From positions 1-34,274 of the forward strand of contig JAQGNU010000029.1 of the NCBI GenBank assembly GCA_028291645.1: a DNA stretch of 34,274 nucleotides. Reading direction: 5' to 3'. The DNA is from Nevskia sp. (GTDB lineage Bacteria; Pseudomonadota; Gammaproteobacteria; Nevskiales; Nevskiaceae). The notes beneath the pieces are model-generated. The model was given only the letters and a program-made list of their open reading frames with translations. It made no database searches and had not been told where the DNA came from. The position numbers were made by a program, and so were the translations under genes. Below are positions 2 through 8,754 of the stretch, in pieces (within the stretch, counting starts at the first letter, position 1; the number at the start of each line of letters is the position of its first letter).

Positions 2-3000
2 ATCACCACGCAGACGACCGTCGCCGACGGCGATGCCGATGCCTCGGTCACGCTCAGCAACAGCGGCGGCGCACTGCAGCTCGGCACCATCGCGACCCAA
101 GCCACGGGTGATAACGCCGACGCCCGCGTACAGCTCAGCGCTGGCACCGGCATCAGCGTCGGCAGCATCGCCACCGCGGCGCACGCCCAGGGCGAATCGG
201 CCAATTCGCTGGCGTCAATCGACATCGCCGCCAAGGCTGGCGCGTTGACCGCAACCGGCGCGTTGAGCACGGTCATCATGTTCGACCAGGGGACCGTGGT
301 CGACGGCGGCATCCGCCTCAGCGCCAGCGGCGGCGACATTCACACTACAGCTTTGAGCACGCAGTTCGGCGGGATCGACGTCAGCGACGTCGGCGGCAAT
401 GTAGTGCTCGGCAATCTCACCACCACCAAGGCCTTCGGCAATGTGCGGGTGCGCGGCACCGACGGCCTGGTGACTGTCGGCGATCTCAACACTTTCGGCG
501 GACCCGTGCAGCTCGATGGCGGCACCGGTCTGCAGACAGGCAATCTGATCGCGCTATCCGATCCCGGCCTGGCCGGCGACCGCGACAGCTCGATCAGCCT
601 GAGCACGCTCGGCGGCACGCTGCACACCGGCAACATTTCCGCATCCGCCGACGGCGGCGGCAGCGCGCATGCAGCACGTGCCAATGTCTCTCTCACCAAC
701 CAGGATGTCGACGGCCACGGCGCCATCGTCACCGGCAACATCACGGTGGCCGCGACCGGCGGCGTCTCACAGCAGGCGTCGATCAGTATCGACGGCAGCT
801 ATGGCAATGGCTCGACGGTGAACGTCGGCAATCTGAGCGGCAGCGACGCTGCGATCACCGTCTACGGCAAGTCCATCCAGCTCGGCACTTTGTCCGGCAA
901 CGGCGGAACGCTCGGCGCTGTGCTGATCGACTCGCGCAGCACGCTCACGCTGGCCAACAACAGCCTCACCGCCCAATCGATCGACCTCACGGCCAACAGC
1001 GGCAACTTCGTGTTCGGCGACCTCACCACGACGCACGGCGCACTGTCGCTGAACTTCGGCGGCGGCAGCCTGAGCGTCGGCCAGCTGGTGGCGGTCGGCG
1101 GCTCGGTCGAGCTCGACGCCGGCGCGCAACTTACCGCACTCGATATCAGCAGCGATCACGCGGTGACGCTCAGCGGCACACAGGTGAGCACGCACGACAT
1201 CGTTGCCGCCGCGGGCATTTCCATCGATGCCGACAGCGGCGTCGGCACCGGCGATCTGAGCGGCACGATGCTGAGCCTGAACAGCGGCGGCACGGTCACG
1301 CTCGGCGACATCAACACCAGCGGCGACACCCAGCTCAGCCTCAGTGCCGGCAATCTTAAAGTCGGCGACGTCAGTGCCGCCGGCCTCAGCACGACGATCA
1401 CCAAGGGCAATCAGACGCTGAGCAATCTGCATATCGGCGCGCACGGCTACCACTTCGGCTTCGACGATATCGCTGGGCAGACCTTGATCATCGGCAACAT
1501 CAACGAGGCCGGCGCGGCGGCGCTGAACTACAACAATCTCAGCCTGCACCTTGGCAATATCAGCGGCGGCAGCTTCAGCGCCAGCAGCACGCATGGCCAA
1601 TTGACGGTCGGCAACATCACTTCGTCCGGCGTGGTAAACCTCGCCAGCGGCCAGGGCCTGCTCAAAGCCGGCAATGTCAGCGGCACGGGCGCAGTCGCGC
1701 TAACCAGCGCGGGCGCATTGCAGGCCGGCACGCTGGCCGGCAGTTCGCTAACAGTCATCGGCGGCGGCGACGTGGTGACGGGCGCTATCACCAGCCCCGG
1801 CACCGTCAGCCTGAGCGCGGGCGGCGATCTTACCGGCGGCAACGTCAGCGCAGCGCGGCTGGTCACCACGCTGACCGGGGGCAACGAGACGCTCGGCGAC
1901 CTCGTGCTCGGTAGCGGCGGCTATCAGTTCAACCTCGGCGATCTCACCGGTCAGACGCTGAGCCTCGGCAATCTCAGCTCGATTGCCGGCGGTGCGTTCG
2001 AGTTCGCCAACGCCAGCCTCGCAATCGGCAATGTCAACGGCGGCGGGTTCAGCGCGAATCTGACGCATGGCCAATTGACGGTTGGCAACATCACTTCGTC
2101 CGGCGCCGTAAACCTCGCCAGTGGCCAGGGTCTGCTCGAAGCCGGCAATATCAGCGGCACGGGTGCAGTTGCCTTGACCAGCGTCGGCGCACTGCAGGTC
2201 GGCACCCTCGCCGGCAGTTCGCTAACGGTCATCGGCGGCGGCGACGTGGTGACGGGCGCTATCACCAGCCCCGGCATCGTCAGCCTCAGCGCAGGCGGCG
2301 ATCTTAGCGGTGGCAACATCAGCGCAGCACGGCTGGTCACCACGCTGACCGGCGGCAATGAACAGCTCGGCGACCTGGTGCTCGGTAGCGGCGGCTATCA
2401 GTTCAACCTCGGCGATCTCGCTGGCCAGACGCTGAGCCTCGGCAATCTCAGTTCGATCGCCGGCGGCGCCTTGCACTTCACCAATGCCAGTCTCACGGTC
2501 GGCGATGTCAGCGGCGGCGCATTCAGCGCCAACCTGACGCATGGCCAGCTCAGCACCGGCGATATCGATTCGAACGGCGATGTCGCGCTCGCGGTCGGCA
2601 GCGGCATGCTCGCCTTCGGCAATATCTCCGGTCACAACCTCAGCCTCAGCAGCGGTCACGACCTCGCCCTCAGCAATCGCTCGCTGGATGCCAGCGGCGC
2701 GCTGCTGGTCGATGTCACCGGCGCGTTCAGCGACAGCGGCTCGCAACTGCGCGGGCAGATGGTGGCGCTGACTGCGACGACGACGCTCGCGCTCGACCAC
2801 TCCGCCATCAGCGGTGCCGGTGGCGGCAACGCCGATGCGGTGACGCTCAGCTCCGGCGGTGCGATGTCGCTGAACCAGGTCGCGGCGTTCGGCGACAACG
2901 TGCACCTCACGTCCGGCGGCGATCTGTCGATCGACAACAGTCAGCTCGGCGCGACCACCAACAGCGATGCACTGCAGCTGAAGGCGGACACGACGACGCG

Positions 3001-3805
3001 CCTGCAGCTGGATAGCGCCGCTGCGATTCATCTGGCGAACAGCACCGCGCTGAGTGCCGACCAGGTCGCGCTGACCGCCGTCGATGTGGTCGATGCCAGC
3101 GGCGCTGCCGCCGTCAACGCCGGCGCGCTGTCGGTGAAGGGCAGTGCAATCGATCTGCATACGGCCGTCCTCACGATCGGCAGCGGTCTTGCCGATTTCG
3201 GCAGCGACCCCGCGGTCCTCGCGCGTCTGAATGCGGTGGCGCCGGAGCTGATGCCGGGCTCGCCGGGCCCGAACGCGAGCTTCGCCGCCAGCGGCAACGT
3301 CAGCATCGGCAGCATCAGTCTCGCCGGCGGCTACCTGTTCGTGCAGTCCGCCCAGCTGGCGCTGCCGACACCCACCGGCCCCGGTGCGATCTTCATCAAC
3401 TACCTGCCGTCCAGCTCCGCTGCAGCGTTCGCGCTCAACACGCTGCCGCCGCCGAACGGCATCACCACCATCATGATCGGCGGCAGCAGCGAGACCGGCG
3501 ACATCCAGATCGGCGACGGCGCGCAGAACCTGACGATCGGCACCGGCACCAACTTCGTCTTTGCCACGCAGGGCATCACCCGCTATCCCGATGCGGTCGA
3601 CACGTCCGGGCGCGTCGTAGTGCTCGGCGAGTCGGTTTCGCGGATCTCGCAAGCGGATCTCGACGGCATCCCGCTCGACGACAGCCAGTACCGCACCGAG
3701 CAGCTGACGCAAACCGTCAATGCAGCCGGCGGCAACGGCGATCTGATCGAAATCCACTGGACCTCCGGTCTGGTGCAGGCCTGTAGCGCCGGTGGTGCCC
3801 CATGA
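2..3805 (+). CDS. Giant beta-helical exoprotein (filamentous haemagglutinin-like), 5' end cut off by the window
   Basis: The reading frame is open from the first bases of the window, so the gene begins upstream; the TTG at 245 is only an internal codon. The visible 1,267 residues are Gly/Ser/Asn/Ala/Thr-rich with recurring short units such as GNIS, GDLT and LSAGGDL about every 18-25 residues. This is the look of a secreted right-handed beta-helix of the two-partner-secretion adhesin type. Two consecutive 158-residue units are nearly identical. The last ~150 residues lose the repeat pattern and carry the only late cysteine (LVQACSAGG), about seven residues from the end. The stop overlaps the next start as ATGA, so translation is probably coupled to the FecR/OmpA protein. 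No secretion domain or TpsB transporter lies in the window. Adhesion or surface display is inferred from the fold class only. Confidence 0.85.
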   Translation: MTTQTTVADGDADASVTLSNSGGALQLGTIATQATGDNADARVQLSAGTGISVGSIATAAHAQGESANSLASIDIAAKAGALTATGALSTVIMFDQGTVVDGGIRLSASGGDIHTTALSTQFGGIDVSDVGGNVVLGNLTTTKAFGNVRVRGTDGLVTVGDLNTFGGPVQLDGGTGLQTGNLIALSDPGLAGDRDSSISLSTLGGTLHTGNISASADGGGSAHAARANVSLTNQDVDGHGAIVTGNITVAATGGVSQQASISIDGSYGNGSTVNVGNLSGSDAAITVYGKSIQLGTLSGNGGTLGAVLIDSRSTLTLANNSLTAQSIDLTANSGNFVFGDLTTTHGALSLNFGGGSLSVGQLVAVGGSVELDAGAQLTALDISSDHAVTLSGTQVSTHDIVAAAGISIDADSGVGTGDLSGTMLSLNSGGTVTLGDINTSGDTQLSLSAGNLKVGDVSAAGLSTTITKGNQTLSNLHIGAHGYHFGFDDIAGQTLIIGNINEAGAAALNYNNLSLHLGNISGGSFSASSTHGQLTVGNITSSGVVNLASGQGLLKAGNVSGTGAVALTSAGALQAGTLAGSSLTVIGGGDVVTGAITSPGTVSLSAGGDLTGGNVSAARLVTTLTGGNETLGDLVLGSGGYQFNLGDLTGQTLSLGNLSSIAGGAFEFANASLAIGNVNGGGFSANLTHGQLTVGNITSSGAVNLASGQGLLEAGNISGTGAVALTSVGALQVGTLAGSSLTVIGGGDVVTGAITSPGIVSLSAGGDLSGGNISAARLVTTLTGGNEQLGDLVLGSGGYQFNLGDLAGQTLSLGNLSSIAGGALHFTNASLTVGDVSGGAFSANLTHGQLSTGDIDSNGDVALAVGSGMLAFGNISGHNLSLSSGHDLALSNRSLDASGALLVDVTGAFSDSGSQLRGQMVALTATTTLALDHSAISGAGGGNADAVTLSSGGAMSLNQVAAFGDNVHLTSGGDLSIDNSQLGATTNSDALQLKADTTTRLQLDSAAAIHLANSTALSADQVALTAVDVVDASGAAAVNAGALSVKGSAIDLHTAVLTIGSGLADFGSDPAVLARLNAVAPELMPGSPGPNASFAASGNVSIGSISLAGGYLFVQSAQLALPTPTGPGAIFINYLPSSSAAAFALNTLPPPNGITTIMIGGSSETGDIQIGDGAQNLTIGTGTNFVFATQGITRYPDAVDTSGRVVVLGESVSRISQADLDGIPLDDSQYRTEQLTQTVNAAGGNGDLIEIHWTSGLVQACSAGGAP
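1592..2065 (+). repeat. Tandem repeat copy 1 (474 bp, 158 codons) in the exoprotein gene
   Basis: The unit begins at HGQLTVGNITSSG and ends at GGGFSANLT. It is in frame and exactly 158 codons from the same point in copy 2. A much more degenerate relative precedes it (about 1390-1591, with TTITKGNQTLSNL and GYHFGF), suggesting repeated duplication of an ancestral module. Confidence 0.85.
2066..2539 (+). repeat. Tandem repeat copy 2 (474 bp, 158 codons) in the exoprotein gene
   Basis: It matches copy 1 along the full length with no gaps; by my count 18 of 158 residues differ. The unit is followed at 2540 by a third HGQLS start that diverges quickly. The gapless in-frame match points to a fairly recent duplication by recombination. 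Confidence 0.85.
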
Positions 3806-5007
3806 GCCTGCGACGACGCGCTGCTCGGCGCTGCATCGGCACCCTGTTGCTGGCGCTGGCCTGTTCTGCAGCGCAGGCGGCTGCGCCCGCCGCCGGTACT
3901 GTCGTGATGTTGACCGGCGCAGCCACCGCCGCCGCCCCTGCCGGCAAGATCCGGCCGCTGGCGAAGGATGCGCCGGTGTACGCCAGCGATATTCTCAATA
4001 CCGCCAGCAATAGCTTTCTGAACCTGAAGTTCAGCGACGGCGGCTACATCCTGATCCGTCCCGACAGCCGCTTCGAGGTGCGCGACTTCGTCGACATCAG
4101 CGCGAACGCGAGGGCGGCAGCCGCCGAAGCAGCGGCCCGCGACGCCTGCGCTGCCGACCTGCAGATGCACATCGACGCCTGCCCACTCGGCGCCGTGATG
4201 CCGCTGCGCGAGGTCCGCTTCGTCACCGCTACACAACTAGCTCCGGCCGCGCTGGCCGCACTCGCGCGCTTGGCCGATGCGCTGCAGCAGCAGCCGCAGA
4301 TCGTCGTCGAGATCGGCGTGTACACCGCCGATCCGCGCAGCGCTGCGGTGAATCGCGGACTGGCGGCGGATCGCGCGGCTGCGATCAAACAATTCCTGAC
4401 CAACCGCGGCGTCGCCGCAGAACGCCTGTCGGTGCAGGGCTACGGTAAGCGTAGCGCGCCGGGCGCGGCGCACGAGGTCGAGCTGAAGTTTCTCGCCGTC
4501 GCTGCGACACCGTCGGGCGCTACCGACGCAGCCGTCGCCCTCGCGCCGTTTGCCGCGCGGCCAACGCAAGCCGCCGAGGGCGTCGCGCCCGCCACCGAGG
4601 CGGAACCCGGTTCGCACGCGTTCTTCAGCTTGCTCAAGGGCGGCTTCCGTGCGGTCAGCGGTGCCATCGGCAAGGTCAAGCACGAGGACTATGAAGTCGC
4701 CACGCCGGTCGCCACTATCGGCATCCGCGGCACCGATTATCTGGCGGTGCTCTGCGATGCCAATTGCGCGCACGATCCGATCATCGATCCGCTGCTGGCA
4801 CCGGACGTCGACGCCCGCGGCGGAGTCGTGTTCGGCGATATCGGCGGCAGCATCGTCATCACCAGTGCGAAGGGCCAGTACGTGTTGCTGCCGAATCAAT
4901 ATGTGCTGGTGCTGCCCGACGGCAGCTTCGTACCGCTACCCTCGGTGCCCTATTTCCTGATCACAGATCCGCTGCCCGATCCGCAGAACTGCGGCGTGCC
5001 GGGTTAG
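3802..5007 (+). CDS. Exported FecR-domain protein with a nested OmpA-like peptidoglycan-binding domain
   Basis: The protein has 401 residues and starts by ATGA overlap with the exoprotein gene. Residues 1-27 form a signal peptide (Arg-rich start, hydrophobic LLLALACSAAQA). Residues ~31-100 are the first half of a FecR domain (AGTVVMLTG, LNLKFSDGGYILIRPDSRFEV). Residues ~135-232 are OmpA-like: LREVRF, TADPRSAAVNRGLAADRAAAI and GVAAERLSVQGYGK match the family's Asp/Arg peptidoglycan-binding pattern. The second FecR half follows at ~273-375 (FFSLLKGGFRAVSGAIGK, YEVATPVATIGIRGTDY). Cys residues at 318 and 322 sit where related periplasmic FecR proteins often carry cysteine. Known FecR domains are contiguous, so the OmpA module appears inserted in a FecR loop. 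I infer a periplasmic, wall-anchored partner of the upstream exoprotein; the exact role is unknown. Confidence 0.85.
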   Translation: MSLRRRAARRCIGTLLLALACSAAQAAAPAAGTVVMLTGAATAAAPAGKIRPLAKDAPVYASDILNTASNSFLNLKFSDGGYILIRPDSRFEVRDFVDISANARAAAAEAAARDACAADLQMHIDACPLGAVMPLREVRFVTATQLAPAALAALARLADALQQQPQIVVEIGVYTADPRSAAVNRGLAADRAAAIKQFLTNRGVAAERLSVQGYGKRSAPGAAHEVELKFLAVAATPSGATDAAVALAPFAARPTQAAEGVAPATEAEPGSHAFFSLLKGGFRAVSGAIGKVKHEDYEVATPVATIGIRGTDYLAVLCDANCAHDPIIDPLLAPDVDARGGVVFGDIGGSIVITSAKGQYVLLPNQYVLVLPDGSFVPLPSVPYFLITDPLPDPQNCGVPG

Positions 5008-5231
5008 CGGCACGCGAGCTGCAGCGCACGGCTGCGTGATAAGCCGTTGTGCATCGCCGAGGCCACGAACACCGCGCGGGCGCCGAACGCAAGGCCCGAT
5101 CTGCGAGCGATCTATGCGCATTTTCTCGCTGGGAAATTTCAGCAGGCTGCTGGACCTGGCAGTAGCGCGTCAGTCCGCCAGCGCCGGCTAAAGCCACTGC
5201 GACCGCTGGAACAAACGGCGCCAAGCCCGAC

Positions 5232-6395
5232 TCAGGCCTGCGCCGCGCGACGTGCCAGCCAGGATTTCAGCGGCGCAGTGCGATCGATCGCGCCCATGCC
5301 GAAGCCGAGTGCCGCGCGCAGGCCCGGCAGCGCCGGACGGAACGCGCGGTAGAGTGTGTCGGTCAGCGCCAGCATCTCGAGGTTGTGTGCCTTGCGCGCA
5401 CGCGCGTAGCGCGCCAGCGTGCGTGCGCTGCCCCAATCGCGCCGCGCGCGGCGCGCGCTGACTATCGTTGCAACTAGCGTCTGCACATCGGCGAAGCCGA
5501 GATTGACGCCCTGCCCGGCGAGCGGATGCACTGCGTGCGCGGCATCGCCGACCAGCACCAGCGACGGCGCCAGATACTCGCGCGCATGCAGCAGTTGCAG
5601 CGGCACGCCGATGCGCCCTGTGGTTTCCAGTACCGCACCGAGCACCTGTTCGGCGGCTGCGCCAAGACGCGCGCAGAACGCCGCATCGTCGAGCGCCAGC
5701 AATTCCTCGGCCAATGCATCGTCGGCCGACCAGACGATCGACGAGCGTCCATCCGCCAGCGGCAGCAAGGCCAGCGGACCGCTCTTAAGAAAACGCTGCC
5801 AAGCAGTCTGGCGATGCGCCTGCTCGGTGCGCACGTGGCAGACAATCGCACGCTGGCCATAGCGCCAGCTCAAAGTCTCGATGCCGGCGAGCCGGCGCAT
5901 CTGCGAATCCGCACCGTCGGCGGCAACGATCAGTCGCGCCTGCAGCTTGCGCCCATCGCGCAATTGCAGGCTGGCGCCGTCGTCATCGAATTGTGCCGCT
6001 TCGATCTCGGCCTGGGTATGACACGGCAAGGCCTGCAGACGCGACCACAGCGTGGCGGTGATCAGCCCGTGCTCGACGATCCAGCCGAGTTGCGTGCGAC
6101 CGGCATCGGCCGCGCTGAATTTCAACGACAGCTCGGGATCGCGTTGCCAGATTTTCATCTGCGTGTACGGACTGATGCGCGCCGCGGCCAGCGCGTCCCA
6201 CACGTTCAGGTCGGCGAGCAGTTGCTGCGACGACGGCGCCAGCGCATAGACACGCAGATCGTAGTCGTTCGCCTGCCAAGCGCGCGGCGCGGCGCGGCGC
6301 TCGATCAGTGCAACGTCTAAGCCCTGATCGTGCAAGGCCAATGCGGCCGCCGCACCGACCGGGCCGCCACCGACGACGATAATGTCATGGCGCAT
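5232..6395 (-). CDS. ubiI: UbiH/UbiF-family FAD monooxygenase, probably UbiI (ubiquinone C5-hydroxylase)
   Basis: This is a 387-residue flavoprotein hydroxylase. The N-terminal Rossmann motif is IIVVGGGPVGAAAALAL (residues 5-21) with the acidic ribose-binding IERR at 31-34. A DGADSQMR motif lies at 160-167 and GDAAHAVHPLAGQGVNLGF at 283-301, the FAD ribityl-binding signature of the UbiH/UbiF/COQ6 family. Members hydroxylate the ubiquinone ring on the membrane face. Choosing UbiI over UbiF or another paralogue rests on synteny: E. coli ubiI (visC) follows ubiH in the pepP operon. The start ATG overlaps the MscS gene end by 11 bases and has GAGGG nine bases upstream. A convergent, feature-poor 224-base gap separates it from the FecR/OmpA gene. 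Confidence 0.85.
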   Translation of the reverse strand: MRHDIIVVGGGPVGAAAALALHDQGLDVALIERRAAPRAWQANDYDLRVYALAPSSQQLLADLNVWDALAAARISPYTQMKIWQRDPELSLKFSAADAGRTQLGWIVEHGLITATLWSRLQALPCHTQAEIEAAQFDDDGASLQLRDGRKLQARLIVAADGADSQMRRLAGIETLSWRYGQRAIVCHVRTEQAHRQTAWQRFLKSGPLALLPLADGRSSIVWSADDALAEELLALDDAAFCARLGAAAEQVLGAVLETTGRIGVPLQLLHAREYLAPSLVLVGDAAHAVHPLAGQGVNLGFADVQTLVATIVSARRARRDWGSARTLARYARARKAHNLEMLALTDTLYRAFRPALPGLRAALGFGMGAIDRTAPLKSWLARRAAQA

Positions 6396-8754
6396 GCGGC
6401 GCGCCCTCGTGATCGACCGCCGCCGGCGCTGCCGGTTCGGCGATCTGCTCCGACGACGCGGTCACGGCTGCAGGCGCCGGCAACATCCGCAGCAACTGTT
6501 CGCCGATGGCGAAGCGTGTTGTTTTGCTGGCGTCGATCTTTTCCTTCAGCAAGCGGTTGAACGCGCGGCCGACATCGTATTGCCGCAGCGGCCGCGTCTT
6601 CAGTCGCGACTGCAGTACCACCGCGCCCGCGTCGAAGCGATCGAGACCGAACACTTCGATCGAGCCGATGATGTCGCGGCGCAGGCTCGTTTCCTTCAGC
6701 AGTTCGACGCCGGTTTCGCGGATCAGCTTCAGCGCTTCGTCGACATCCGAATCGTAGGTAACGCGTGTGTTGAACACCGCATAGCTGTATTCGCGCGACT
6801 GGTTCTTGATCGTCTTGATCTCGGAAAACGGAATCGCATGCACCGCACCATCGCCGTCGCGCAGACGCACGGTGCGGATGGTCAGGCCTTCGACGGTGCC
6901 GGAACGGCCGTCCATCTCGACCACTTCGCCGACCGCCAGCGTGTCTTCGATCAGGATGAACACGCCGGTGAGCAGATCCTTCACCAGCGTCTGCGCACCG
7001 AGGCCGAGCGCGATGCCGATGACACCGGCGCCGGCAATCAGCGGCGTCACATCGATGCCGAGATTGGCCAGCGTCGCGATCACGCCGATCACCAGCAGCA
7101 GCAGGAACAGCGCATTGCGCACCAGCGGCAGCACCGTCAGCGCACGCGTGCTCGGCACATGGCCACGCCGCGGACGGCTCGGCGAGATCGCTTCGCGGAT
7201 CGCGGTATCGAGCACGATCCACAGCACCGAACCGGCAAGGACGGTGGAAGCGATGCCGATCAGCGAGGTCGCAACCCGCTGGCCGCCAGCACTGCTATGC
7301 ATCCAGTTCCAGGCCGACCCGCCCCACAGCCGCGAAGTCAATTCGACCACCGTCAGCCACAGCGCCAATACCATCACCGCATGCAGCACCTTGAGGAAGC
7401 GCTCGGCATACGGCGCTGCGCGCAGGCGTCGTGCACGCTGCGCGCTCGCCAGCACGAAGCCGCGGCGGATCAATGCGGTGGCGAGAAAGCCCAGCACCAG
7501 CAGGCCGGAGGTCGCGATCGCGCGGCGCAGCGCCAGGTTGTCGTGATGGATGCTGAGCACGGTCGCCAGCGACGAGATCGTCACCAGCAGCAGGATCGGC
7601 AGATGCCAGATCGCCGCAAACAAGCGCAATGCTTCGGTGTTGAAGCGGCTGGCGTGGCGCACGCTGTAGCTGCTGTTGCGGATCAGATGCGATACCGCGC
7701 GGCGGAAGCGCAGCACGAACACGGCAGCGAGCGACGCCGCCGTCAGATTGGCCAGCGTCGACACGACGATCGCCAGATCGCGACCGAGCTGTGCGACCAC
7801 GCGCGTATTGGTGGTGGCATCGCCGAGCGCGGCCAGCGCGCCGATGAAGAACAGCAGGATCGGCGCGCGTCGCAGCAGCACCCGGAACGCCGCTCGGCGA
7901 TGGCCGCCGCCGAACAGCGAAAACAGCAACAGGCAGACGGTGGTGAACACCGTACCGAACACCACCGTGTAGGCGAATGTCAGCGCGAACATGCGCCCCA
8001 GCGACGGCGCCGGCGTCACCGTGAAGTGCACCGTCACATAGAACGCGATCACCCACGGCGCGACGCGCGCCAGCACATACAGCAGCAGATCGCGCGTGCG
8101 CACGTCCGGCGGCAGCGGCCGCGGCAACTTCAGCAGCCGCTCGGCGCCGTAGCCGATCGCCAGCAGCAGCACGGCGATCCCAGCCCACAAGCCGAGCACG
8201 CGCAGGAACATCGTCAGGCTATCGACCAGCGGTTCCGGCGAACGCGTGAACAGCGTGCCGATCTGCTGAGACGCGGCATTCAGGCGCCGGCTCCAGAACT
8301 GCAGCACCGTATCGCTGGTGCGCAGCTGCGACTGGATCGAATCGAAACCGCTCGCCACCGCGCCGAGCAGCCCCGGCGTGTCGTCTTCAGCCACTGTGCC
8401 ATCGGCCTGCGCGGTCGCCGCCCGCAGGTCTTTCAATTGCGCCAGCAAGGCGGCGCGCGATTGGTCGTTCTCAAGCGTCTGGATGACATTGTCGAGCGAG
8501 TTCCCAAGTCCAGCCGGCGCGACAGCCGGCCGCGTAGCGGCGGGCGCAGCCGCCACTACGGGTGCTGCTGCAGGCGGCGCAAAAGCGGTCGCGGCCTCAG
8601 CGGGTGCAGGCGCTATCGCCGGCGCAGTTGGACCGGCTGCATCGTCGGCCAGCAGCGCTGCGGAGCAGATCAGTCCCAGCGACAGCAGCGCCGTGCGAGC
8701 GAGCGCCGTCGCATGCAAGCGTAATGGCATCATCGAAACAGCATAGCGGTTCAA
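6385..8754 (-). CDS. Large multi-pass mechanosensitive channel of the MscS family
   Basis: The 789-residue protein begins with a signal-like segment (ALLSLGLICSAALLADD), then an Ala/Pro-rich linker (~40-75), a short periplasmic-type region and several hydrophobic segments. The MscS core occupies roughly residues 540-750. The pore helix contains GVIGIALGLGAQTLVKDLL, followed by the beta-domain (VGEVVEMDGRSGTVEGLTIRTVRLRDGDG, IPFSEIKTIKN), as in MscS, MscK and MscM. The C-terminus is an Ala/Pro/Glu-rich tail. Such channels release solutes on hypo-osmotic shock. I chose the TTG at 8754 because it overlaps the ubiH stop as TTGA and has GGGAG six bases upstream; the ATGs at 8733 and 8730 lack a clear ribosome site. 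A channel gene inside a ubiquinone operon is not the E. coli order. Confidence 0.88.
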   Translation of the reverse strand: MNRYAVSMMPLRLHATALARTALLSLGLICSAALLADDAAGPTAPAIAPAPAEAATAFAPPAAAPVVAAAPAATRPAVAPAGLGNSLDNVIQTLENDQSRAALLAQLKDLRAATAQADGTVAEDDTPGLLGAVASGFDSIQSQLRTSDTVLQFWSRRLNAASQQIGTLFTRSPEPLVDSLTMFLRVLGLWAGIAVLLLAIGYGAERLLKLPRPLPPDVRTRDLLLYVLARVAPWVIAFYVTVHFTVTPAPSLGRMFALTFAYTVVFGTVFTTVCLLLFSLFGGGHRRAAFRVLLRRAPILLFFIGALAALGDATTNTRVVAQLGRDLAIVVSTLANLTAASLAAVFVLRFRRAVSHLIRNSSYSVRHASRFNTEALRLFAAIWHLPILLLVTISSLATVLSIHHDNLALRRAIATSGLLVLGFLATALIRRGFVLASAQRARRLRAAPYAERFLKVLHAVMVLALWLTVVELTSRLWGGSAWNWMHSSAGGQRVATSLIGIASTVLAGSVLWIVLDTAIREAISPSRPRRGHVPSTRALTVLPLVRNALFLLLLVIGVIATLANLGIDVTPLIAGAGVIGIALGLGAQTLVKDLLTGVFILIEDTLAVGEVVEMDGRSGTVEGLTIRTVRLRDGDGAVHAIPFSEIKTIKNQSREYSYAVFNTRVTYDSDVDEALKLIRETGVELLKETSLRRDIIGSIEVFGLDRFDAGAVVLQSRLKTRPLRQYDVGRAFNRLLKEKIDASKTTRFAIGEQLLRMLPAPAAVTASSEQIAEPAAPAAVDHEGAPHAP

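Follow-up and report, generated by a model that had tools for sequence, protein, structure and literature searches.

The window analysed here, the whole 34,274-nucleotide stretch of Nevskia sp. DNA (assembly GCA_028291645.1, JAQGNU010000029.1, positions 1 to 34,274 of the forward strand), is one entire contig (C192) of a 234-contig genome. On its plus strand, at 3802..5007, lies a gene for a 401-residue FecR partner protein with a nested OmpA-like domain, as read from the open reading frame (ORF), Pfam matches and a structural model. This gene, called fecR here, follows the 3' end of an exoprotein gene (2..3805, plus strand), probably a fragment of tpsA, the exoprotein gene of two-partner secretion (TPS) loci, in a frame that is open up to the contig edge. 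The 1267 visible residues of the exoprotein matched no Pfam family and hold a single cysteine, the seventh residue counted from the C-terminus (codon at 3782..3784, plus strand). An initial annotation had claimed that fecR is coupled by an ATGA overlap to a giant exoprotein. The ATGA, in which the tpsA stop and the fecR start overlap, is present at 3802..3805 on the plus strand, and coupling to a large exoprotein stands; the "giant" size is not confirmed, since the contig edge cuts the window's own exoprotein after 1267 visible residues. The genes tested around fecR were the tpsA end, a ubiquinone hydroxylase, a second FAD hydroxylase, DUF3667 and an M24 peptidase, with ubiquinone hydroxylase genes downstream of fecR.

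The nested FecR-OmpA-FecR protein

The protein starts with a signal peptide, judged by eye (residues ~1-27, 3802..3882; helix 2-21 in the model), and its lipobox-like Cys21 is not conserved among the orthologues of a 27-row alignment (A1). The N-terminal half of a FecR domain (residues 31-97, 3892..4092), related to the LapA/MpIBP retention domain according to profiles, alignments and the model, is followed by a loop with its insert (residues 98-271, 4093..4614), made up of an Ala-rich linker, the OmpA-like domain and another linker in the alignments and the model. Pfam and a family profile placed the OmpA-like domain at residues 122-218 (4165..4455), and Pfam, A1 and the model placed the C-terminal FecR half at residues 272-380 (4615..4941). 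All of these features are on the plus strand, as are the codons of the cysteines. The mature protein has five cysteines (116, 127, 318, 322 and 397). The Cys116/Cys127 pair precedes the OmpA-like domain and resembles the cysteine pair of relatives' OmpA proteins, Cys318 and Cys322 (4753..4767) are invariant in A1, and so is the tail cysteine Cys397 (4990..4992), the fifth residue from the C-terminus. If 116/127 and 318/322 form pairs, Cys397 would be left over, because the total is five.

Both halves of a FecR domain (~31-100 and ~273-375) with an OmpA-type domain between them had been proposed, and both parts of that proposal were confirmed. The OmpA profile PF00691 matched residues 144-217 (E 3.6e-12, 46.9 bits vs a cut-off of 27.2) and the best stretch of the FecR profile PF04773 was residues 273-316 on profile positions 41-80 (E 4.7e-7, 30.6 bits vs a cut-off of 24), so both exceeded their Pfam cut-offs. 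In a 49-row alignment of the window protein and 48 FecR homologues (A3), all 48 homologues covered both halves and left the columns of residues 149-176 and 183-216 empty throughout; their linker residues fell at 217 onward, with stray ones at 143-148 and 177-182. AlphaFold2 with A3 gave a model with a mean predicted local distance difference test score (pLDDT) of 78.7, and the block means were 95-98 for residues 31-100 and 83-97 for 271-380, 61-86 for the OmpA part (141-230) and 36-41 for 121-140. Strands 90-97 and 272-279 border the insert in this model, in agreement with the suggested check that structure prediction should give one FecR domain with OmpA in a loop. A single-sequence AlphaFold model (pLDDT 43) was left unused, and a mixed alignment of FecR and OmpA fragments (A2) was misaligned and dropped. 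We conclude that the nested FecR-OmpA-FecR architecture is real and that the OmpA-like domain occupies a loop of one FecR domain. The protein was assigned to the FecR family (PF04773), its score being above the cut-off and both halves being aligned with the 48 homologues and confidently folded.

Foldseek matched the model to OmpA/Pal structures, to the FecR-type anti-sigma structures 4m0h and 6ovk (108-119 columns matched, too few to show the halves packed as one) and to the cell surface anchoring domain 5ix9. The last of these, from an antifreeze protein, was also the sole significant PDB relative of the A3 profile (E 1.3e-7, over the N-half), and its fold matched the FecR N-half with a root-mean-square deviation of 0.8 over 62 columns. 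The N-half (31-125) matched the LapA retention model NF033682 as well (E 2.4e-7), at 31.1 bits, under the cut-off of 50; with this sub-cut-off score in a separate small protein, it was not counted as a LapA retention module. A match to the TpgA model NF047726 was weak (E 2.2e-4, 20.5 bits vs a cut-off of 350) and the protein is no member of that family. FecR-type anti-sigma regulators have an N-terminal cytoplasmic anti-sigma domain and a membrane helix, and a gene for an extracytoplasmic function (ECF) sigma factor adjoins them. The window protein has a signal-peptide-like start and no Pfam match to an anti-sigma N-terminal domain, its gene neighbours are the tpsA 3' end and a ubiquinone hydroxylase, and it was not placed among these regulators.

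The Asp and Arg of OmpA domains bind diaminopimelate, and both had been described as kept in the insert. We compared the insert with a profile made from 22 OmpA domains found in genomes of the family, 2 of them from the window's genome. Residues 122-218 scored 78 bits, and the binding segment aligned gap-free: Arg191 (4372..4374, plus strand) is the conserved peptidoglycan-binding Arg, as had been said, and the position of the peptidoglycan-binding Asp holds Ala176 (4327..4329, plus strand), with Asp177 next to it, so the description of the Asp as kept is wrong. The NRRVE motif near the end of the insert is lost too. The same Asp is also missing in 4 of the 22 profile members (L164, L170, L171 and L177). 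The insert is thus OmpA-like by profile, with the Asp-Arg pair incomplete, and its binding to the wall is doubtful, possible as judged from these residues and not to be assumed. The idea that the insert ties a FecR domain to the cell wall is weakened by the lost Asp.

Variation of the FecR loop among relatives

We searched 58 genomes of the family, placed with Nevskia, Solimonas, Sinimarinibacterium and Stagnimonas (named members of a genome-contig scan), and found many FecR orthologues in which both halves lie close together. Among 279 loci examined, 210 frames matched the FecR profile and 31 the OmpA profile; the two that matched both were copies of the window's gene, which is the only one there with both domains in one frame. 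Searches for OmpA and FecR in one frame returned the window's own genome alone, both in 85 genomes of the order (E 1e-14, with up to 36 candidates scored per genome) and in 369 genomes of the class (E 1e-11, with up to 8 candidates scored per genome). The FecR-OmpA protein had no match in a plasmid collection, and by itself had no relative in the genome-contig scan. The FecR-OmpA-FecR order, expected to recur beside large exoproteins, was thus not refound in the 279 loci or in the family, order and class searches. What does recur in these neighbourhoods is a FecR protein adjoining a TPS exoprotein, with a variable loop.

The plain loop of TPS-linked relatives is a Pro/Ala-rich linker of 32-83 residues. 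In genome G045 a SPOR domain (PF05036, E 5.1e-11) occupies the same loop, and in G051, G052 and G055 a Cys-rich segment does. The SPOR-bearing gene lies at locus L042 (G045:C9, frame 4652-5905, minus strand) and is seen also at L013, a second, unrelated wall-binding module at the same site. The Cys-rich segment (L049, L050 and L051, from G052, G051 and G055, respectively) is conserved, with ~45 residues and six cysteines, and had no firm Pfam match when tested in L026.

Several candidates for further inserts or fusions were rejected. The long-span matches at L060, L061 and L126 are tandem double FecR proteins, and such proteins, with a tail cysteine, occur at L060, L061, L116 and L126, between tpsB and tpsA in L060, L061 and L116. 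As OmpA-FecR candidates, G054:C46 and G047:C3 proved to be FecR only, G018, G013, G046, G024 and G294 (L203) OmpA only, G169 (L207) a LysM-like start with FecR, and G045 and G055 the SPOR and Cys-rich proteins, respectively. In the OmpA-family proteins of G018 and G013 (L276 and L277), the C-terminal tail resembles, by eye, a plastocyanin-type small copper-protein domain. OmpA genes do not generally lie near FecR genes: none was found in the 1.2 Mb of L052-L131, and L045, L046, L189 and L194 hold one. A FecR tree for dating the insertion was left unused, because its backbone lacked resolution and the window's row fell on a long branch.

The OmpA insert could be a neutral passenger in a tolerant loop that binds nothing, so that FecR works as it does in the relatives with a plain linker. 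The replacement of the canonical Asp by Ala176, the loss of NRRVE, the free variation of the loop and the presence of the insert in one genome only all agree with this. However, the domain is still recognisable by the family OmpA profile and keeps Arg191 and the cysteine pair, and an unrelated wall-binding domain, SPOR, sits in the same loop in G045. We regard a passenger role as quite possible, while leaning somewhat away from it.

TPS loci and their terminal cysteines

In the relatives the gene preceding fecR encodes a large TPS-domain exoprotein (PF05860; tested with Pfam in L045, L047 and L050), and TpsB (PF03865 and POTRA_2; L045, L043) precedes the exoprotein gene. Profiles built from the relatives' TpsA and TpsB detected both in most other loci. 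The relatives thus have full TPS loci, a TpsA with a TPS domain beside a TpsB with POTRA/ShlB, and the window has the TpsA 3' end only. Contig C28 of the same genome ends in tpsB followed by the 5' end of a TPS-domain tpsA. Because of this and of the same gene order in the relatives, we infer that the window's exoprotein is the tpsA 3' end of a conserved tpsB-tpsA-fecR locus; the ends of C28 and the window do not overlap, and the two parts are only probably those of one tpsA gene. TPS-fecR loci were found outside the family as well, with Pfam TPS domains in L061, L086 and L116, TpsB in L061, and hidden Markov model matches. Two gene orders occur, tpsB-tpsA-fecR and tpsB-fecR-tpsA, the latter in L061 and L116, which makes the link between FecR and TPS independent of any single gene order.

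Other features of such loci were seen. A SapC-family gene (PF07277) lies after fecR at L045 (15017-15751), other Nevskiaceae loci have ORFs that look alike by eye, and no SapC-type ORF follows the window's fecR. One exoprotein frame of 4176 residues at L261 (G049:C56:18844-19746) has three successive partial TPS-domain matches, and genomes of the class hold TPS-domain open frames of 29,206 residues (G136:C1:290030) and 18,106 residues (G189:C1:301724).

We then compared the exoprotein ends, scoring a lone tail cysteine where it was the only cysteine in the last 60 residues and stood 2-7 residues from the C-terminus. All 28 fecR-adjacent TpsA of the order with a readable end had one; six of these were 3' parts at contig edges, the window's included, and L190 was clipped by its region. 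Among 29 TpsA without an adjacent fecR, five had a lone tail cysteine, 16 had none and eight had two or more, counting one doubtful reading that was kept (G080, L267). Fisher's test of the lone cysteine against fecR adjacency gave p 1.9e-11 (6e-11 without L267), which is only a guide because the rows are related. The count left out TpsA whose ends were cut (L239, L242, L244 and L272), the 5' pieces L269, L271 and L274, and G012:C101, G021:C93 and G026:C123; L245 contains masked bases. The HMW1-type anchor, with two C-terminal cysteines, was absent from the window's exoprotein and from all 28 fecR-adjacent TpsA, each having a single cysteine in its last 60 residues. In several TpsA the lone cysteine is the only one of the whole stop-to-stop frame (4492 residues in G023, 2159 in G044 and 1840 in G057) and therefore has no partner within its own chain.

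All five non-adjacent TpsA with a lone cysteine were in genomes that also have a fecR-adjacent set (G047, G048 twice, G049 and G055); in G047 and G048 there is, besides, an orphan FecR that has a tail cysteine. The lone tail cysteine occurred in none of 17 TpsA from genomes without FecR among the matches listed, down to E ~1e-10. This list came from the family search, the order-wide search being too insensitive to prove the absence of FecR (G009, G040 and G046); G080, which is outside the family, was covered for FecR by the order-wide search only. Four TpsA with a lone tail cysteine, L240, L241, L268 and L270, had no tpsB or fecR found nearby, in genomes with a complete set, and are possibly served in trans. 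In the wider set, L060-L131, four of five readable fecR-adjacent TpsA had the lone tail cysteine (L061, L086, L116 and L124).

The FecR partners show a matching pattern, a cysteine within the last five residues in 28 of 28 TPS-linked proteins. Among 14 FecR proteins of the order for which no neighbouring TpsA was seen, nine had no cysteine in the last eight residues (L048, L184, L193, L226, L227, L228, L229, L231 and L238) and five had one. As a background, 261 other mechanical ORFs of 250-800 residues from the same loci included 35 with a cysteine in the last eight residues and 11 with a lone one. After seven open-ended frames were dropped, the wider set comprised 69 closed FecR frames: ten had a tail cysteine with TPS or TpsB in the locus, nine a tail cysteine without these, 48 had neither, and two had TPS without a tail cysteine, both with masked bases near the end (p 1.3e-5). 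FecR proteins also occur in Deltaproteobacteria/Desulfobacteraceae-named bins (L077, L097, L098 and L121); three have QCQ as their last residues and L121 matches TPS or TpsB, so the pattern may reach beyond gammaproteobacteria.

A possible periplasmic stopper for TPS exoproteins

The annotation had suggested an anchoring or secretion-control partner, and this is now the best reading; the key feature, the lone tail cysteines of the two proteins, had not been noted in it. We propose that FecR is a third component of TPS (type Vb), a periplasmic stopper joined by a disulfide to the end of TpsA that would keep the fibre on the cell; judging from sequence patterns, this proposal could as readily be right as wrong. 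TpsA would pass outward through TpsB, its C-terminus being the last part to go. Its lone cysteine, still in the periplasm, would bond to the FecR tail cysteine, Cys397 in the window protein, in an intermolecular disulfide, and the folded FecR domain, too large for the TpsB pore, would retain the fibre. That the FecR N-half is related to retention domains of the LapA type supports a stopper role. The FecR loop may be a permissive site that received wall-binding modules at least twice (OmpA here, SPOR in G045), and the OmpA-like insert may add a doubtful contact to peptidoglycan through its degenerate binding site.

Known systems offer parallels. The C-terminus of TpsA is kept in the periplasm or TpsB by cysteine chemistry in HMW1, HxuA and CdrA, the last by a "cysteine hook" (PMC5422565, PMC7616799). 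The proposed anchor would be a two-protein version of this: in HMW1 and HxuA the disulfide within TpsA forms a loop, whereas here a lone TpsA cysteine would meet the tail cysteine of a separate FecR. Tails with two or more cysteines do occur in the same order, in the eight of 29 TpsA without an adjacent FecR, one of them doubtful. LapA-type retention domains fold inside the cell, are too large to pass the channel and so hold RTX adhesins (PMC12077191), the LapA/MpIBP module being the adhesin N-terminus in a TolC-like channel (PMC6890996). The relationship of the FecR N-half to this module (NF033682, and 5ix9 from an ice-binding adhesin) accords with a folded periplasmic stopper, but here it belongs to a distinct protein of a TPS locus and does not form the N-terminus of the adhesin. 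The RTX adhesins also have "split" domains, in which one domain emerges from inside another (PMC12077191); those are other folds that bind extracellular ligands, whereas the window protein would be periplasmic.

Several points weigh against the stopper proposal. A TpsA-FecR disulfide was observed neither here nor in the cited literature, and the tail cysteines could instead make homodimers. The 28 fecR-adjacent loci are homologous and so are not 28 independent events, and the fecR-adjacent TpsA of L072 ends without a tail cysteine. Conversely, tail cysteines are present in FecR proteins with no TpsA seen beside them (L187, L188, L189, L191 and L225, of which L187 and L191 are at contig ends) and in nine FecR proteins of the wider set whose loci hold no TPS gene. 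The predicted packing of the two FecR halves against each other rests on pLDDT and the contiguous homologues, and wall binding is in doubt because the insert is without the canonical Asp.

Alternatively, the role of the FecR-OmpA protein may resemble that of TpgA: a periplasmic chaperone for TpsA secretion, or an assembly factor, that acts in export and makes no lasting anchor. Like TpgA, it would be a small wall-associated periplasmic protein whose gene adjoins that of a giant type V surface protein, although AtaA, the partner of TpgA, is a trimeric autotransporter of type Vc, and the OmpA part is nested here and has lost its Asp. To our knowledge, TpgA has no FecR domain. The gene overlap with tpsA and the weak TpgA-model match argue for such a chaperone, and TpgA, which shares a transcript with AtaA, binds both AtaA and peptidoglycan, and less AtaA is on the surface when TpgA is absent (PMC8151025, PMC13082670). 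However, the paired lone tail cysteines are then unexplained, and an OmpA insert found in one genome only is not a required part, so we consider this unlikely. Under the stopper proposal, a loop module such as OmpA or SPOR would fasten the stopper to the wall, in the way that TpgA links AtaA to it (PMC13082670, PMC8151025), which is doubtful for the OmpA domain of the window.

It is also possible that the tail cysteines act separately, in TpsA dimers, FecR dimers or with another partner, and not with each other. The tail-cysteine FecR proteins whose loci hold no TPS (nine from the wider set, five from the order) fit this. But the two tails are associated in adjacent genes, and the non-adjacent TpsA with a lone cysteine were found only in genomes holding a FecR with a tail cysteine, and we would not expect separate action to be the explanation.

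A wall-linked envelope sensor that signals, with a regulatory reason for its place by tpsA, would resemble the LysM-FecR proteins (COG4254), in which FecR is likewise joined to a peptidoglycan-binding module. Such proteins are encoded in a biofilm operon next to two-component genes, those of a response regulator and a histidine kinase (PMC5192318), and LysM-like starts before FecR were seen by eye in L127 and L207. LysM is not nested in FecR in the frames examined. The tested neighbours of the window's gene are not regulators and the protein has no anti-sigma N-terminal domain match; a sensor is very unlikely. Finally, the nested gene could be an artefact in which a metagenome-type assembly fused two genes, as 234 contigs and an insert seen in no second genome might hint. 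We consider this extremely unlikely, since both junctions are in frame, GC content shows no shift (0.64-0.72 across 3000-6500), identity between the OmpA part and the same-genome matches listed (C228 and C178) is only 32-38%, and the linkers look like the Ala-rich loop of the family.

The component parts described here are of known kinds, and their combination is new. Among the results listed from the open-access literature searched, no paper on a FecR-TPS link, or on FecR with the LapA retention module, was found. A review of TPS notes that the presence or absence of a C-terminal anchor possibly reflects functional differences, and its text does not mention FecR (PMC5422565). How TPS exoproteins without a cysteine-pair anchor are retained is the question addressed by the stopper proposal, and the paired lone tail cysteines, in TpsA of up to 4,492 residues and in the adjacent FecR, make a simple test of partner-mediated anchoring. 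More broadly, and with doubt somewhat the stronger, we suggest a three-component TPS in which a FecR stopper fold would be common to type I adhesins, where it is fused, and type V adhesins, where it would be disulfide-linked, with a loop that takes OmpA or SPOR, in several gammaproteobacterial lineages and perhaps beyond. If true, this would assign a function to a group of FecR proteins that commonly take their name from iron regulation, and the nested OmpA and SPOR domains illustrate a way in which an anchor of this type could be linked to the wall.

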